From: Brevibacillus humidisoli
Lineage (GTDB): Bacteria > Bacillota > Bacilli > Brevibacillales > Brevibacillaceae
Assembly: GCF_020923435.1 (NCBI RefSeq)
Contig: NZ_CP087263.1
Location: 3,491,970 to 3,555,969 of the forward strand
Direction of reading: 5' to 3'
DNA: 64,000 nt
The notes beneath the pieces were generated by a model, which was not told where the DNA came from, did not search any database, and saw nothing but the letters and a program-made list of their open reading frames with translations. A program made the position numbers and the translations under genes. The stretch's first letter is position 1, and each line of letters begins with the position of its first letter. Below are positions 14,103-47,279 of this stretch, piece by piece.

Positions 14103-15725
14103 TTGAACAAGTTTACACTAATCCTCTTATCTCTGTTTTTGTTTTATGGATGTTCTCTAGAATCTGACAACGTGGACAGCCAAAGCACTAGCTCACCGGG
14201 GGTAGGGTACCTTGAACTGGATGCGAAACTTGAGGATGCAATCGTAAATGAGAAGAAAGGAAAGGGAAAGGTAAAAATCACTCTCAACGTGACAAAAGAA
14301 ACCAAGGCGGACATTCATTTAACCTACAGCTTATTTGAGTGGCAAGATGATCGTTATCTCGAACCCATTGCAGAAGAAACTTTGTTCAAAGATCATGTAA
14401 AAGTGAATGAACATAAAAAAATAAATGTACCGTTTGATAACTTAAAGCCTGCTGAGTACATGGTTACATTACAAGCTACTTCTAAACAAAATGAACATAT
14501 CACTTGGGGAGCATCAAAAACAATACATTTTACGGTTACTGAAGAAACAATTAAGGACGGTTGGGAAAAAAGAAAACAGAAACCCGGACGGGCTGAGTAC
14601 GAACCGAATTCTGGCAGCCCCAATATACAGATCTTAGATGAGGAATTACCTGAACCTCCTGATGAGGATGACGAAAAAACCTCAGCGAACGAGACAACAT
14701 CACGTGACCAGCCAACAACTAATGAACAATCAATAAGCACTAGTACGGATATTAGTGGGGTGTTTAAGTACTATGACGAAAACGGCAGATCAGACGAAGT
14801 AAACGGCGCTCATGTAAAAGTATATGATAAAACTAAATATTACACTTGGAACTTCTTAGATAGTGATTACACCGATAGTTATGGGGAATGGGAACTCAAT
14901 GATGTTACAATTCCCTCAGACTCTATCTCCAGTGATTCTTTAACGGTTTATGCAGTACTTTACTCACTTACAAATTCTTCTGTTGACGTTGAGGATGATA
15001 GCTCAATTACATACAGATGGCAAACTCCCGCAGTCGCCAATGTATATTCCGGTTCGATTGGAACGTACTATATTCAAGATGATAATAAACGTGCAATATG
15101 GATTATGCATCAAATAGATAGCGTGTATAGAAAATTAGATAACTATGATACTAGTACAAATGTACCGCTTAGAAAAGCATATGTAGAATGGGATATCTCT
15201 ACTTCAAGAGTTGCTTACTTCGATGGCTATAATCACACAATTTATTTAAGTCATGATAGCGCGGATAATGGCAGTTCAGTGGTAATGCATGAAGCTGCTC
15301 ACAGTTACATGTGGGATGTATATGACAGCTGGTTTCCAAGTGACAGTTGCCCAAAGCCACACTATATAACGAAAGCCTCAAATGCGGAATGCGCATGGAA
15401 AGAAGGGTGGGCGGATTTTTTACCGCTTGTTATAAAAAACGATCCGTATTTTAGATTCCCTAATGGATCTGCTATTGATATGGAGAATACAAGTAGTTTT
15501 GATTTAGGTGATACAGTAGAAGGCAGAATTGCTGGTTCCCTTTGGGATATGTACGATTCTAATAACGATGGACAAGACACGCACACCTATGCGTTCTCCA
15601 ATATTTATGAGGCGATGTATAATTCAAGGGTAGCGAACTTTTCTGATTACTGGTATGAGTGGTTATATCTCGCAAACCCAGCAATTGCTGAAGATTGTTT
15701 AAATCAAAACTCTATTAACTATTAA
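14103..15725 (+). CDS. Secreted lipoprotein with HEXXH zinc-metalloprotease motif
   Basis: A 540-residue protein from an unusually AT-rich gene. The TTG start at 14103 is preceded by GAGGTG. It begins with a lipoprotein-like signal ending FLFYGC, though phenylalanine at -3 is not ideal. Residues about 30-150 look like a beta-sandwich region, followed by an acidic linker (PEPPDEDDEKTSAN). About residues 215-320 resemble a carboxypeptidase-regulatory or transthyretin-like repeat. The C-terminal part has H396-E397-A-A-H400 and, 34 residues on, E434 in WKEGWADF, the arrangement of a gluzincin zinc site. It ends near AIAEDCLNQNSINY. No family name is recognised. Low GC and Asn/Lys-rich composition suggest horizontal origin. 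Confidence 0.8.
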   Translation: MNKFTLILLSLFLFYGCSLESDNVDSQSTSSPGVGYLELDAKLEDAIVNEKKGKGKVKITLNVTKETKADIHLTYSLFEWQDDRYLEPIAEETLFKDHVKVNEHKKINVPFDNLKPAEYMVTLQATSKQNEHITWGASKTIHFTVTEETIKDGWEKRKQKPGRAEYEPNSGSPNIQILDEELPEPPDEDDEKTSANETTSRDQPTTNEQSISTSTDISGVFKYYDENGRSDEVNGAHVKVYDKTKYYTWNFLDSDYTDSYGEWELNDVTIPSDSISSDSLTVYAVLYSLTNSSVDVEDDSSITYRWQTPAVANVYSGSIGTYYIQDDNKRAIWIMHQIDSVYRKLDNYDTSTNVPLRKAYVEWDISTSRVAYFDGYNHTIYLSHDSADNGSSVVMHEAAHSYMWDVYDSWFPSDSCPKPHYITKASNAECAWKEGWADFLPLVIKNDPYFRFPNGSAIDMENTSSFDLGDTVEGRIAGSLWDMYDSNNDGQDTHTYAFSNIYEAMYNSRVANFSDYWYEWLYLANPAIAEDCLNQNSINY

Positions 15726-15779
15726 TATAAAAATCTAAGAGGGGGGACTATGTCCCCCAGACAAAATCTCGGTATAGGC

Positions 15780-15982
15780 GGAGAGTAGCTCTTTTCCGGA
15801 AGGAGCAACTTTTGCCGACCAGCCCAGCGGAGCCAGTCCGAAGCGGAGGCTTTCGGGCGCAACTCTGAGATACTTTGTAGCAGCACCACTTTTGCGCCCG
15901 ACCGCTTTGGACTGGCACATCGGACAGTTCCGCTTCCTCGCAGGTTGGCAACGGCGCGACTGGAGGAAAAGAGCTACTCTCC
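15780..15982. repeat. About 200-bp imperfect palindrome with 18-bp perfect ends
   Basis: GGAGAGTAGCTCTTTTCC (15780-15797) is the exact reverse complement of 15965-15982. Inside, GCCAGTCCGAAGCGG (15832-15846) pairs with one mismatch to CCGCTTTGGACTGGC (about 15902-15916), and TCGGGCGCAA pairs with TTGCGCCCGA around the centre. RNA from either strand could fold into one long irregular hairpin. The short reading frames crossing it look like artefacts. A shorter perfect hairpin lies at 15742-15758. No target-site duplication was seen. Together with the hairpin at 16014-16036, this accounts for most of the gap 15726-16083. Confidence 0.8.
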
Positions 15983-16013
15983 CCTGCGCCGCTCCCCTTT
16001 GTATACAGACTGA

Positions 16014-16036
16014 AAGAACCTGACGAGCAGGTTCTT
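16014..16036 (-). terminator. Hairpin after ald, probable terminator
   Basis: AAGAACCTG (16014-16022) pairs perfectly with CAGGTTCTT (16028-16036), followed on the minus strand by a short T-rich run. It lies about 50 bases past the ald stop. The T tract is weak. Confidence 0.5.
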
Positions 16037-16083: not shown

Positions 16084-17208
16084 TTAGTTTTTCACCAGCA
16101 AAATATCCTCAATCGGGACGTACGGCAGCCCGTGGGCTTCGGCAACGGCACGGTAGCTCACCTTGCCGCCGATCACGTTTACCCCTTTGGCCAGCACCCG
16201 ATTGTCTCGAATCGCCGCCTGATAGCCTTTGTTCGCCAGCTGCAGCGCATACGGAACGGTTACGTTGGTCAGTGCCAGCGTAGAGGTGCGGGCCACAGCG
16301 CCCGGCATGTTGGCTACGGCATAGTGGATCACGCCGTGCTTTACATAGGTCGGGTTATCGTGCGTCGTGATCCGGTCAATCGTCTCGATTGAACCGCCCT
16401 GGTCGATCGCCACGTCCACGATCACCGAGCCAGGCGTCATCGACTTGACCATCTCTTCGGTCACCAGACGCGGGGCACGTGCTCCAGGAATCAGGACAGC
16501 CCCCACCACCAGGTCTGCCTTTTGCACCGCATTGGCGATGTTGAAGCTGTTGGACATCAGCGTCTGCGCGCGCCCCTGGAACAGATCATCCAGCTGACGC
16601 AGTCGATCCGCACTAATATCGAGGATCGTCACGTTGGCTCCCAAACCGACTGCCATCTTGGCTGCATTGGTGCCGACGATTCCCCCGCCGACTACGACAA
16701 CTTCGCCCTTCTGCACCCCTGGGACACCACCCAGCAGAACTCCTTTGCCGCCGTACTGCTTCTCCAGGAATTGAGCCCCGATCTGTACAGCCATCCGTCC
16801 CGCTACTTCACTCATCGGCGTGAGCAGCGGCAGTGCACCGTTGTCCAACTGGATCGTCTCATAGGCGATGGCAACTACTTTTTTCTCCATCAGGGCACGG
16901 GTCAGTTCCGGCTCCGGTGCGAGATGCAGATAGGTGAACAGGATCTGCTCTTCACGGAAAAAACGGTACTCGGAAGGAAGTGGTTCCTTTACCTTCATCA
17001 CCATGTCGACATTCCAGGCGTCTGCCGCATCTGGAACAATGGTCGCTCCTACCGCTTGATAGTCTAGATCGGTAAATCCACTGCCGAGGCCGGCATTGGT
17101 CTCGATCCGCACCTCGTGTCCGTTCTGCACCAATGCGGTCACACCAGCAGGAGTAATCGCCACACGGTTCTCATTGTTCTTAATCTCTTTTGGAATCCCT
17201 ACGATCAT
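16084..17208 (-). CDS. ald: Alanine dehydrogenase
   Basis: Ald interconverts alanine with pyruvate, ammonia and NADH, and lets Bacillales use alanine as carbon and nitrogen source; in B. subtilis it is also needed for normal sporulation. The 374-residue protein starts [20 protein letters not shown]. It shows the pyruvate-binding [13 protein letters not shown], the conserved [13 protein letters not shown], the NAD motif [20 protein letters not shown], and [22 protein letters not shown] precedes the ATG at 17208. A terminator separates it from the upstream AdeR-like regulator gene on the same strand, so it probably has its own promoter under that regulator. Confidence 0.97.
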
Positions 17209-43840: not shown

Positions 43841-43879
43841 ACGTTTGTTCACATAGTTGACGTTTGTTCAAATGTACAA
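43841..43879 (-). promoter_or_regulatory. Promoter and candidate SorC operator of the sugar operon
   Basis: On the minus strand TTGTAC (43879-43874) and CTATGT (43856-43851) are 17 bases apart. Two exact copies of ACGTTTGTTCA (plus-strand reading, 43841-43851 and 43860-43870, 19 bp apart) overlap the -10 and spacer, the place expected for an autoregulatory operator. Confidence 0.55.
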
Positions 43880-43958
43880 GATTTATCTCTGGCTGTCAAC
43901 TGTTGTGAAGGCAGAATTGATTTCCTTATCTTTATCGGATCTACCAAGATGGATTTGC

Positions 43959-44594
43959 ATGAAAAGGTTTTACCGCTTATTTACTTCAGCTTTACTGATC
44001 GGGACGATTATCTCTCCGAGTGTTCTCGCTTCCACTGATACAATCGTATCGAATGAAGAAGTCAAGCCAATGGGACCTGATGATCCATATTACAACATGC
44101 ACTGGACCTGGCCTACAACGGATGACACGATAACGGACGATTATGGCGATGTCGGTTGGCGTTGGCACAAAGGAATAGACATTGGAGTCTATAAGAAACC
44201 AGTATATTCAACGGCATCAGGTGAGGTTATTCAAAGTGGGCATTTCTCTGATGGAGTAACGTATGCTATCACCATCAAGCACAACGATAAAGATCCCGAT
44301 ACTGGAAAAAACTTAATCACGAGATACCTACATTTAGAACCCGGAACACTTAAGTTCACAAGAAATGAAGAAGTAAACAAGGGTACTACAATTGCAACGT
44401 CTGGAACAAGTGGAGCCAGTGGTTATCATCTACACTTTGATGTGAATGCCAAAGGAATGACATATCCTGGTGGAACCATGACAAACTTCAAAAAGCAATT
44501 CAAATTATCCGACAAAGAGATAAAATCAATCTTGGAAACTTCACTCTCCAAGGAAAAAAAGCAGGCGATATTAGAAACACCTACTCAAAGATAA
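43959..44594 (+). CDS. Secreted M23-family (LytM) peptidase
   Basis: A 211-residue exported protein: MKRFYRLFTSALLIGTIISP begins a signal peptide probably cut after SVLA. The LytM zinc site is H70 and D74 in WRWHKGIDIGV and H157/H159 in GYHLHFDV; TRYLHLEP supplies another family histidine. The domain should cleave peptidoglycan cross-bridges or a related wall peptide. The ATG at 43959 has a modest AAGATGG site; the frame extends upstream across the operator region, which is unlikely to be translated. The gene is AT-rich, unlike its neighbours, suggesting transfer. A strong terminator follows. Confidence 0.85.
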   Translation: MKRFYRLFTSALLIGTIISPSVLASTDTIVSNEEVKPMGPDDPYYNMHWTWPTTDDTITDDYGDVGWRWHKGIDIGVYKKPVYSTASGEVIQSGHFSDGVTYAITIKHNDKDPDTGKNLITRYLHLEPGTLKFTRNEEVNKGTTIATSGTSGASGYHLHFDVNAKGMTYPGGTMTNFKKQFKLSDKEIKSILETSLSKEKKQAILETPTQR

Positions 44595-44603
44595 CTTTTG
44601 TAA

Positions 44604-44633
44604 CACACTCCCATAACGTATTATGGGAGTGTG
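44604..44633 (+). terminator. Intrinsic terminator of the M23 peptidase gene
   Basis: CACACTCCCATAA and TTATGGGAGTGTG form a perfect 13-bp stem around CGTA, followed by CTTTTAT. Confidence 0.9.
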
Positions 44634-44696
44634 CTTTTATGATTGTTTACCGCAGAAGCATCACAGGTAAACTTACCATTCAGGGAGGTTTGGAGC

Positions 44697-45233
44697 ATGC
44701 ACAGAAAGGCTAGTCTATCGATTATCCTGATTGTAGGGATCTCCGCTATTTTGGTAATTTATTATCTCACTACAATATTTGACCAACCACTTCTTTCCCA
44801 AGGAAAAGAAGCAATCCGTGATGAAGAAGTTTTAAAAAAAGTCGCTGGAATCCAAAATAACGTGAAAATGGGCTTATCTGAGGAAGAAGTAATTGACTTG
44901 TTTGGAGACGACTATGTTCTAGTGGATCATAATGGCGATCTTGAGACCGGGCTTGATCAGTACTGGAAGTACCGCTTCTATAAGGATGAGAACTATCATC
45001 CCTCTGTCCCCGACCACGTCATTGATGAAGATGGACTCCGCAGTGGAATGATTGGGGTTGAGTTGTTGATTGGCTGGAAAGATAAACATGTGTCCTTGTA
45101 CACGATCGCCTACACACAGGAACCCTATCAAGATCTTTACTTTTTTGTGAATGACAAAGGGATGATCCGTGAAGAAGTGATGAAACCCGATGGAACCACC
45201 CAAATCATTAAACCGGGCAACACAGACCAATAG
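44697..45233 (+). CDS. Membrane-anchored hypothetical protein, 178 residues
   Basis: Starts MHRKASLSIILIVGISAILV: a basic stub and one hydrophobic helix (about residues 7-27), then an extracytoplasmic domain of about 150 residues. That domain contains VKMGLSEEEVIDLFGDDYVL, a pattern reminiscent of small SmpA/BamE-like or YjgB-like folds, and KYRFYKDENYHP. GGGAGG precedes the ATG at 44697. It is AT-rich like the M23 peptidase gene before it and presumably arrived with it. No firm family; function unknown. Confidence 0.72.
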   Translation: MHRKASLSIILIVGISAILVIYYLTTIFDQPLLSQGKEAIRDEEVLKKVAGIQNNVKMGLSEEEVIDLFGDDYVLVDHNGDLETGLDQYWKYRFYKDENYHPSVPDHVIDEDGLRSGMIGVELLIGWKDKHVSLYTIAYTQEPYQDLYFFVNDKGMIREEVMKPDGTTQIIKPGNTDQ

Positions 45234-45291
45234 GATAGAGGAAAAGAGCTGCTCTCCTGTGTGCTCCCCTTTGTCTGCAGTCTGTGTTAGA
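45234..45291. repeat. Partial copy of the end of the 15.8-kb palindrome
   Basis: The stretch starting GAGGAAAAGAGCTGCTCTCC and continuing GCTCCCCTTTGT and CAG.CTG matches 15963-16012 (GAGGAAAAGAGCTACTCTCC, GCTCCCCTTTGT, CAG.CTG) nearly base for base, apart from a 3-base gap. Both copies follow an AT-rich inserted gene in the same orientation and precede the 3' end of a minus-strand operon. The left arm and centre of the palindrome are absent here. Confidence 0.7.
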
Positions 45292-45339: not shown

Positions 45340-46301
45340 CTACTCATACAGATGGCAAGCAACGTGACGTCCAGGCGCTACCTCCCGCCATTTGGGCACG
45401 ACCGAGCGGCAGGCGTCGGTTGCTACCGGACATCGCGTGTGAAAAGTACAGCCGCTGGGCGGGTTTTGCGGACTGGGCACATCTCCCGTCAAAACGATGC
45501 GCTCCCGGCCTGATTCGGGATCTGGTACAGGAACTGCCGACATCAGCGCCTTGGTATAGGGATGAAACGGTTCAGCAAACATCTCCTGAGTCGGAGCGAG
45601 CTCCACCAGCCGTCCCAGGTACATCACCCCCACCCGGTCGCTGATGAACTTGACGACCGACAAATCGTGGGAGATAAACATGTAGGTGAGGGAAAACTGC
45701 TCCTGCAGATCCTGCATCAGGTTTAGCACCTGAGCCTGGATCGACACGTCCAGGGCGGACACCGGTTCGTCGCAGACGATAAACCGTGGCCGCAGTGCCA
45801 GTGCCCGGGCGATCCCGATCCGCTGCCGCTGTCCGCCGGAAAACTCATGCGGATAGCGGTCGGCATGATAGGTAGAGAGTCCGACCACTTCCATCAGTTC
45901 GCGGACGTTCTCCTTGATCTCAGCATCGGAGAGGCGTTGGTGCGTACGGATCGGTTCTTCCAGGATGCGCTGGACGGTCCACCTGGGATCCAGCGAGGCA
46001 TACGGGTCCTGAAAGACGATTTGCATGTTGGTGCGAAACGTTCGCAGTTCATCTGCTTTCAAGGCCCGCACATCAACACCGTCAAACAAGATCTCTCCCT
46101 CGGTTGGCTCAATCAAGCGGAGAACAGCACGTCCCGTAGTCGATTTGCCGCAGCCCGACTCACCGACGATGCCCAGTGTTTCTCCCTCGTTGATCGTCAG
46201 CGACACGCCGTCTACCGCCTTCACTGCACCCACTTGCTTGCCAAACAATCCTTTGGTGATCGGATAATGTTTTTTCAGATTGCGTATTTCCAATAATGGC
46301 T

Positions 46302-46305
<4 letters not shown>
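45340..46305 (-). CDS. dppF: Peptide ABC transporter ATP-binding protein, DppF/OppF type
   Basis: A 321-residue ATPase: Walker A GESGCGKS, signature [19 protein letters not shown], Walker [13 protein letters not shown], and the C-terminal oligopeptide motif [10 protein letters not shown] with conserved cysteines. It pairs with DppD. The start is GTG at 46305, behind GGAGG, overlapping the dppD stop by four bases (GTGA). The earlier in-frame ATGs lie inside dppD. The transporter imports peptides for the peptidases encoded in the same locus. Confidence 0.93.

Positions 46306-47279
<974 letters not shown>

Follow-up and report, generated by a model that had tools for sequence, protein, structure and literature searches.

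A palindrome behind ald in Brevibacillus humidisoli is the core of a MITE, very probably moved by an IS1182-family transposase

What is the 200-bp palindrome that lies behind the alanine dehydrogenase gene (ald) of Brevibacillus humidisoli, and how did it get there? It stands in a stretch of 64,000 nucleotides, called the window here. An earlier note, made from the sequence alone, had described a palindrome with perfect 18-bp ends, a recurrence of its right end at 45.2 kb, and a position of both copies after an AT-rich gene and before the 3' end of a minus-strand operon; it proposed a small mobile palindromic element or a structured RNA tied to the insertion of the AT-rich genes.

The palindrome, its copies, and the partner insertion sequences

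The two 18-nt arms (15780-15797 and 15965-15982, plus strand) were 100% complementary in a repeat search, as the earlier note had seen, and the left arm belongs to covarying helix 1. The region 15759-16013 folds far better than shuffled sequence (z of -7.5 on the plus strand and -6.7 on the minus strand), and none of 200 shuffles was as good. The palindrome (15780-15982) is the core of a non-autonomous element (MITE) of ~265 bp. The window copy of this MITE spans 15759-16013 on the plus strand, as delimited by an alignment of near-full copies and as the best of 38 matching stretches. Its left terminal repeat is shortened, with only ~AGACAAAATC left, and its right end is present: the terminal inverted repeat CTTTGTATACAGACTGA (15997-16013, plus strand), found by pattern search with one mismatch and by the ends of insertion sequences (ISs), is of the type shared with the IS1182-family ISs of the same genome described below.

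With 15760-16020 as the query, 38 stretches matched in the organism's own genome (G000; 4,908,260 bases), some of them being two parts of one shortened copy. Thirteen of the 38 are near full length (85 to 100% identity), and the rest are halves and fragments. One of the latter, 45238-45284, corresponds to query positions 204-253 (the right end) with 80% identity (E 4.8e-5), and the recurrence at 45.2 kb was therefore seen correctly; this right-end fragment of a second copy spans 45238-45285 on the plus strand, with a terminal repeat (45270-45285) at its end according to the own-genome and pattern searches. Among 39 genomes searched, including its own, both other members of the genus matched the element, and none of the 36 genomes outside the genus did. 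With their own copies as queries, the two congeneric species gave 45 (G001) and 43 (G002) matches, and their matches to the window copy are 70 to 77% identical. Hence, the palindrome is not single-copy, and the earlier note had understated an element that is longer and genome-wide and for which the hairpin repeats outside other copies, described below, are more telling.

The MITE is ~265 bp long in G000 and G002. In G001, copies such as L088, L093, L097, and L114 measure ~440 to 620 bp because additional sequence precedes the same core on its left, and several of these have hairpin duplications. A different short element of the same genome, L131 (G001:C1:124322-124699), measures ~380 bp; its ends are similar, and it comes with a hairpin duplication (AGGCATCCGCACCGGATGCC). 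At L064 (G002:C1:3512009), the left hairpin adjoins what seems to be the right end of a further copy, and two elements may flank one hairpin there. An 18-mer scan of 257 Gb of genome contigs returned 13 loci and was discarded, with ~15 reckoned by chance and own-genome records possibly excluded.

Read with their flanks, the copies end in TCAGnnTGtaGACAAAG...CTTTGTCwrCAnnCTGA. A search for TTTGTCWRCANNCTGA with one mismatch found 68 sites in G000, 71 in G001, and 62 in G002, compared to 7, 2, and 6 sites for the reversed control pattern. Many end sites of G000 pair at a distance of 1.53 to 1.55 kb, and the 13 such places that were read hold two kinds of IS, of 1547-1548 bp and 1532-1539 bp; an IS copy broken by another insertion (2762 bp) was seen at L124. 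The ISs have terminal inverted repeats around a single transposase ORF with the Pfam domains DUF772 and DDE_Tnp_1_6. The transposases (499 and 525 aa; one copy per kind) score 491.5 and 478.1 bits with the IS1182 model NF033551 (cut-off of 270), which assigns both kinds to the IS1182 family. The short element has ends that match those of the ISs, lacks a transposase, and shows target duplications in many, not all, of its copies, and is thus a MITE; on reading of the sequences, its likeness to the partner ISs is confined to the ends. G002 keeps a decayed IS of the same type with the same ends (L130), and in G001 no IS of this type scored above the family cut-off; hence, no such IS of their own could move the MITEs of these two species today.

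Two composites were also seen in G000. L122 and L123 (G000:C1:2309611-2317030) are ISs in the same direction, with an identical hairpin at their outer sides, left of the first and right of the second; the ~7.4-kb unit resembles a composite transposon with a duplicated target hairpin and has an IS1272-like copy inside. At L126 (G000:C1:3274021-3278457), two ISs surround ~1.4 kb of other DNA, and the outer hairpins match, the loop of one being the reverse complement of the other.

Hairpin repeats at the insertion sites and alternative explanations

Many IS and MITE copies have a complete terminator-like hairpin as a direct repeat on both sides, a different hairpin for each copy. We tested 86 copies: 13 MITEs of G000, 30 of G002, and 29 of G001, as well as 10 single ISs and 1 composite of G000 and 3 ISs of G014, another genus of the same family; L122 and L123 stand outside the IS count as a composite. 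Repeats scoring higher than the 99th percentile of cross-pairings occur in 6/13 MITEs of G000, 24/30 of G002, and 7/29 of G001, in 9/10 single ISs and the one composite of G000, and in all three ISs of G014. Percentiles were used because the cross-pair control reaches 64, higher than most observed scores, probably owing to G001 flanks with a common repeated module. A test independent of the element ends gave repeats in 8/13 copies of G000 and 21/30 of G002. The 22 of 29 G001 copies without a repeat above the 99% control include some with decayed or poorly bounded left parts, and at L114 a repeat seen on reading was missed in the scored test. An exception among the ISs is L117 (G000:C1:183500-185046), with a repeat of only 6-8 nt and no clear hairpin. 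The repeat tests omitted L111 (contig edge), the 17 fragment loci L014-L030 of G000, L210, L249 and L250 (G014 copies fetched a second time), and the matches to which no locus had been assigned (13 in G002 and 15 in G001).

In the 46 clearest copies (score above 27.5, ~99.9th percentile, among the 86), a T- or A-run lies beside the hairpin in 37, compared to 8.6% of random window sites. The runs are on the right in 21 copies and on the left in 26; a run on both sides, as needed for the split of a two-way terminator, occurs in 10/46 only. The paired repeats are 99% identical for the ISs of G000 (8/9 perfect), 97% for the MITEs of G002 (14/22 perfect), 96% for those of G000 (2/6 perfect), and 93% for G001 (0/5 perfect), and therefore at least the IS insertions look recent. 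The MITEs of G002 differ by ~6-12% from their nearest neighbours, yet their paired hairpins are 97% identical; either several sources, already diverged, have been active or selection acts on the hairpins. At L121, L060, L076, and L009, the two hairpin copies have the same or nearly the same stems and loops that differ by substitutions or in length.

The interior of the MITE was also analysed as an RNA. Across 32 copies from three species, the 43 predicted pairs are 98% paired, and 100 cells are changed on both sides compared to 36 in shuffles, a signal that is abolished by sliding the partners. Pairs with two-sided change (10 versus 8.8 in shuffles, 32/500 shuffles being as high) and further pair types (32 versus 32.5) do not stand out; the covariation of the stem raised by the earlier note is thus found in the two-sided changes, and two of five measures are unremarkable. 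A comparison of 72 copies counted 38 distinct G.U and 16 distinct A.C events (p 0.004), an excess that one would expect of the strand shown if it has a role as RNA. Together, these numbers are suggestive of an interior that is also kept as RNA, their signal being weakened by common ancestry, arm-to-arm conversion, and a structure chosen on that strand.

How else might these traces be explained? An ordinary transposase with a fixed stagger and a preference for terminators could duplicate hairpins by chance fit, and the median repeat of 22 bp is indeed the size expected of a fixed stagger of 20-odd bp around many terminators. However, the repeats of the 46 copies range from 17 to 29 bp and track the hairpin span (r = 0.84), in 40/46 neither border is more than 2 nt away from the hairpin foot, and the repeats in G184 and G221 (below) vary with the hairpin as well, so that we regard a fixed stagger as quite unlikely. 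Among the six other copies (L002, L073, L084, L087, L105, and L125), the repeats of L002 and L125 are plainly palindromic, another hairpin having been picked by the script, and those of L084, L087, and L105 are imperfect. The pairing, the two-sided changes, the G.U excess, and conservation in three species would also suit a palindrome that is chiefly a structured RNA, spread by its function and only incidentally mobile. This is unlikely, since many copies have transposon ends and a hairpin duplication of their own, arm-to-arm conversion in an inverted repeat can also give covariation, two covariation measures are unremarkable, and Rfam 15 has no family above the gathering threshold on the element (its only matches in the window are two tRNAs). 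The structured RNA that the earlier note had offered as an alternative may instead be an addition to the mobile element. A group IIC intron was rejected with the same Rfam search; such introns likewise sit behind terminators. A REP-type palindrome spread by a RAYT (Y1) transposase would share the palindromic form, the many copies, and the link to terminators, but the Y1 pattern lacks terminal inverted repeats and target duplications as found here; given ends in common with a DDE IS, hairpin target repeats, and an IS1182 partner transposase, we consider it extremely improbable.

The window site itself suggests a second event besides insertion. To the right of the element, the hairpin AAGAACCTG-ACGAG-CAGGTTCTT (16014-16036, minus strand) is presumably the terminator of ald (16084-17208, minus strand; Pfam) and the original target, judging by its sequence and by hairpins behind ald in relatives. 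It has a single match across the whole window, that is, no second (left) copy. The truncated left end abuts an unlike hairpin (GGGGGGAC-TAT-GTCCCCC; 15741-15758, plus strand), from its sequence the presumed terminator of an AT-rich gene (14103-15725, plus strand) that is not part of the element and has no Pfam match. The left and right hairpins thus differ, and the window copy has no duplication. Elsewhere, unlike hairpins on two sides were also seen at the IS copies L194 and L208. The setting described by the earlier note was found at both sites: the element follows an AT-rich gene (GC of 0.386 for 14103-15725 and 0.411 for 43857-45233, versus 0.541 for the window) and precedes the 3' end of a minus-strand gene, ald in one case and an oligopeptide-type ABC ATPase (45340-46338; Pfam) in the other. 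The gene at 14103-15725 encodes 540 aa with a lipoprotein-like start (LNKFTLILLSLFLFYGCS) and lies between ald and pyrD. Its product had no tblastn match in the ald loci (1.5 kb on each side) of 10/10 relatives, and no element was found within 330 nt behind ald in these ten, in line with a mobile element; eight of them had no element match anywhere in the genome, and pyrD starts less than 180 nt behind ald in six. The congener G001 has a copy ~450 nt before the ald start, i.e., on the 5' side (L105, G001:C13:83338-83573; L251), whereas the window copy lies behind the end of ald. Could the palindrome end have mobilised the neighbouring AT-rich genes as cargo? Both window copies adjoin such genes, and at other places the same genome has IS composites whose outer hairpins match, but no left end and no second ald hairpin were found at 13.9-14.1 kb, and no left end or matching hairpin was seen at 43.7-44.0 kb. 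The proposed tie to the insertion of these genes is therefore not borne out, and a cargo transposon is very unlikely. In the simplest history, the MITE was inserted behind ald, and a later event brought in the AT-rich gene at the cost of the left end and the left hairpin.

Two modes in the IS1182 family and a model for insertion

IS1182 transposases were found at E ≤1e-80 in 65 of 250 Bacilli genomes. A hairpin repeat scoring at least 36 lies beside the ends in 7/28 loci (L163-L190); the repeats of L178 and L190 are false because these loci are short and their two flanks overlap. In nine further loci, a repeat is present in L134, L145, L154, and L144, weak in L135 (score of 22, other ends), and absent from L136, L137, L162, and L133. 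Three to six copies were then read from each of 12 genomes, G000 included. ISs ending in TCAG duplicate the hairpin in 15/19 copies (G246, 3/5; G184, 6/6; G036, 3/3; G221, 3/5), and the aligned repeats of G184 and G221 measure 24-33 nt. A second type we take to be putatively IS1272-like from its ends (GAGGCTGGGACA or similar) and its length of 1.72-1.96 kb. It shows a duplication in 1/38 copies, and this one is borderline (score of 24, control maximum of 25) and does not abut the ends. Both types occur in G000, with a duplication in 9/10 single copies of the TCAG type and 0/5 of the IS1272-like type; with the whole hairpin duplicated in 9/10, the TCAG-type ISs do not replace hairpins in the manner of IS1272.

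The two modes in Bacilli are in line with the transposase tree. Among 31 transposases, one change splits 11 duplicating from 8 non-duplicating rows, with a branch support of 100/100; 12 rows are unlabelled, and G041, G042, G050, and G108a are labelled from one copy each. The ORFs were chosen by BLASTP against two reference transposases, with L164, L166, L172, and L184 left out; L184, a 246-aa fragment, is a duplicating row. L135 is a long branch of unsure place. A first tree, in which L164 and L172 formed extreme branches and were probably wrong ORFs, was rebuilt.

In sum, we think it very probable that the palindrome forms the interior of a MITE and that this MITE owes its movement, in trans, to a DDE transposase of the IS1182 family, which inserts it at a hairpin foot and duplicates the whole hairpin. 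In our model, the transposase would recognise the common ends and place the element where a hairpin has its foot; this hairpin is usually a terminator and is possibly in extruded or cruciform state. The two ends would be joined at opposite feet, across the whole hairpin, and repair synthesis or gap filling would leave one complete hairpin on each side, so that the repeat length would be set by the hairpin and not by a fixed stagger. With a cut at the foot, the right copy keeps any T-tract that lay to the right of the target, and the left copy any A-tract that lay to the left. Most of a T-tract thereby remains outside: after the left hairpin comes TCAG (or a close variant), and before the right one CTGA. 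The transcript of a neighbouring gene may run past the hairpin nearest to it and across the element, to be terminated only at the farther hairpin, and for the 10 copies with runs on both sides such read-through is predicted for both neighbours. Similar traces would be expected from a transposase that senses the symmetry of the sequence and needs no extruded hairpin, and the evidence for mobility consists of apparent sequence traces of past insertion. A further-reaching idea is conceivable, and we put it forward only tentatively, as somewhat more doubtful than probable: a DDE clade in which the target's secondary structure sets the duplication length, through joining at both 5' feet of an extruded hairpin. 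The entire terminator would thus be copied and insertion be nearly harmless, the element would come to lie in the 3' untranslated regions of its neighbours, and its covarying palindrome would work there as RNA, while a sister clade would delete the hairpin.

Comparison with known systems

In the usual picture, it is the geometry of the transposase complex that sets how long a target duplication is, and family tables give repeat lengths of up to ~60 bp for IS1182. Here, the duplication length follows the hairpin, which is an unusual way of choosing and duplicating a target. In the literature searched, which excludes ISfinder/TnPedia and most subscription papers, we found no report of whole-hairpin duplication by an IS1182 element.

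The MITE resembles the bacterial MITEs of a recent review in being short and non-autonomous, with IS-derived ends and stable stem-loop transcripts; whole-terminator target repeats are not described in the parts of that review available to us, and the term IS1182 is absent from its main text (PMC10969869). Like the SPRITE, BOX, and RUP repeats of pneumococcus, it is a short chromosomal repeat, some of these being linked with terminator-like sequence; SPRITEs contain such sequence, whereas here the host-owned terminators stand outside the element (same review, as far as available). For ISCaa15, an IS1182 element of Amoebophilus (another phylum), 4-bp direct repeats are tabled for two copies in the section seen (PMC3196728), which argues against a single rule and for a mixed family.

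The closest relatives are IS1272 and TnSha1, likewise with an IS1182-family transposase and with stem-loop targets, several of them terminators, without a primary sequence consensus (PMC5678879, PMC4923244; both in excerpt, also for what follows). IS1272 takes out or replaces the stem-loop, wholly or in part, and does not duplicate it (PMC5678879, PMC4923244); our elements, in contrast, have the entire stem-loop on either side. For palindromic targets in the family, both papers refer to Siguier et al. (2015), a report that according to PMC5678879 came without detailed data; our measurements add a duplication that is exact at its borders and a split between clades. In Fig. 13 of PMC5678879, duplication of the whole stem-loop through attack at the 5' feet of a cruciform was drawn as the hypothetical "pathway b", and our elements look like this pathway. 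Thus, one family seems to give both outcomes, duplication, as measured here, and loss, as published for IS1272, whose look-alikes lack the duplication in our data, also within one genome; this makes the structure-dependent model of PMC5678879 directly testable and suggests how an element can enter a terminator without its host losing that terminator.
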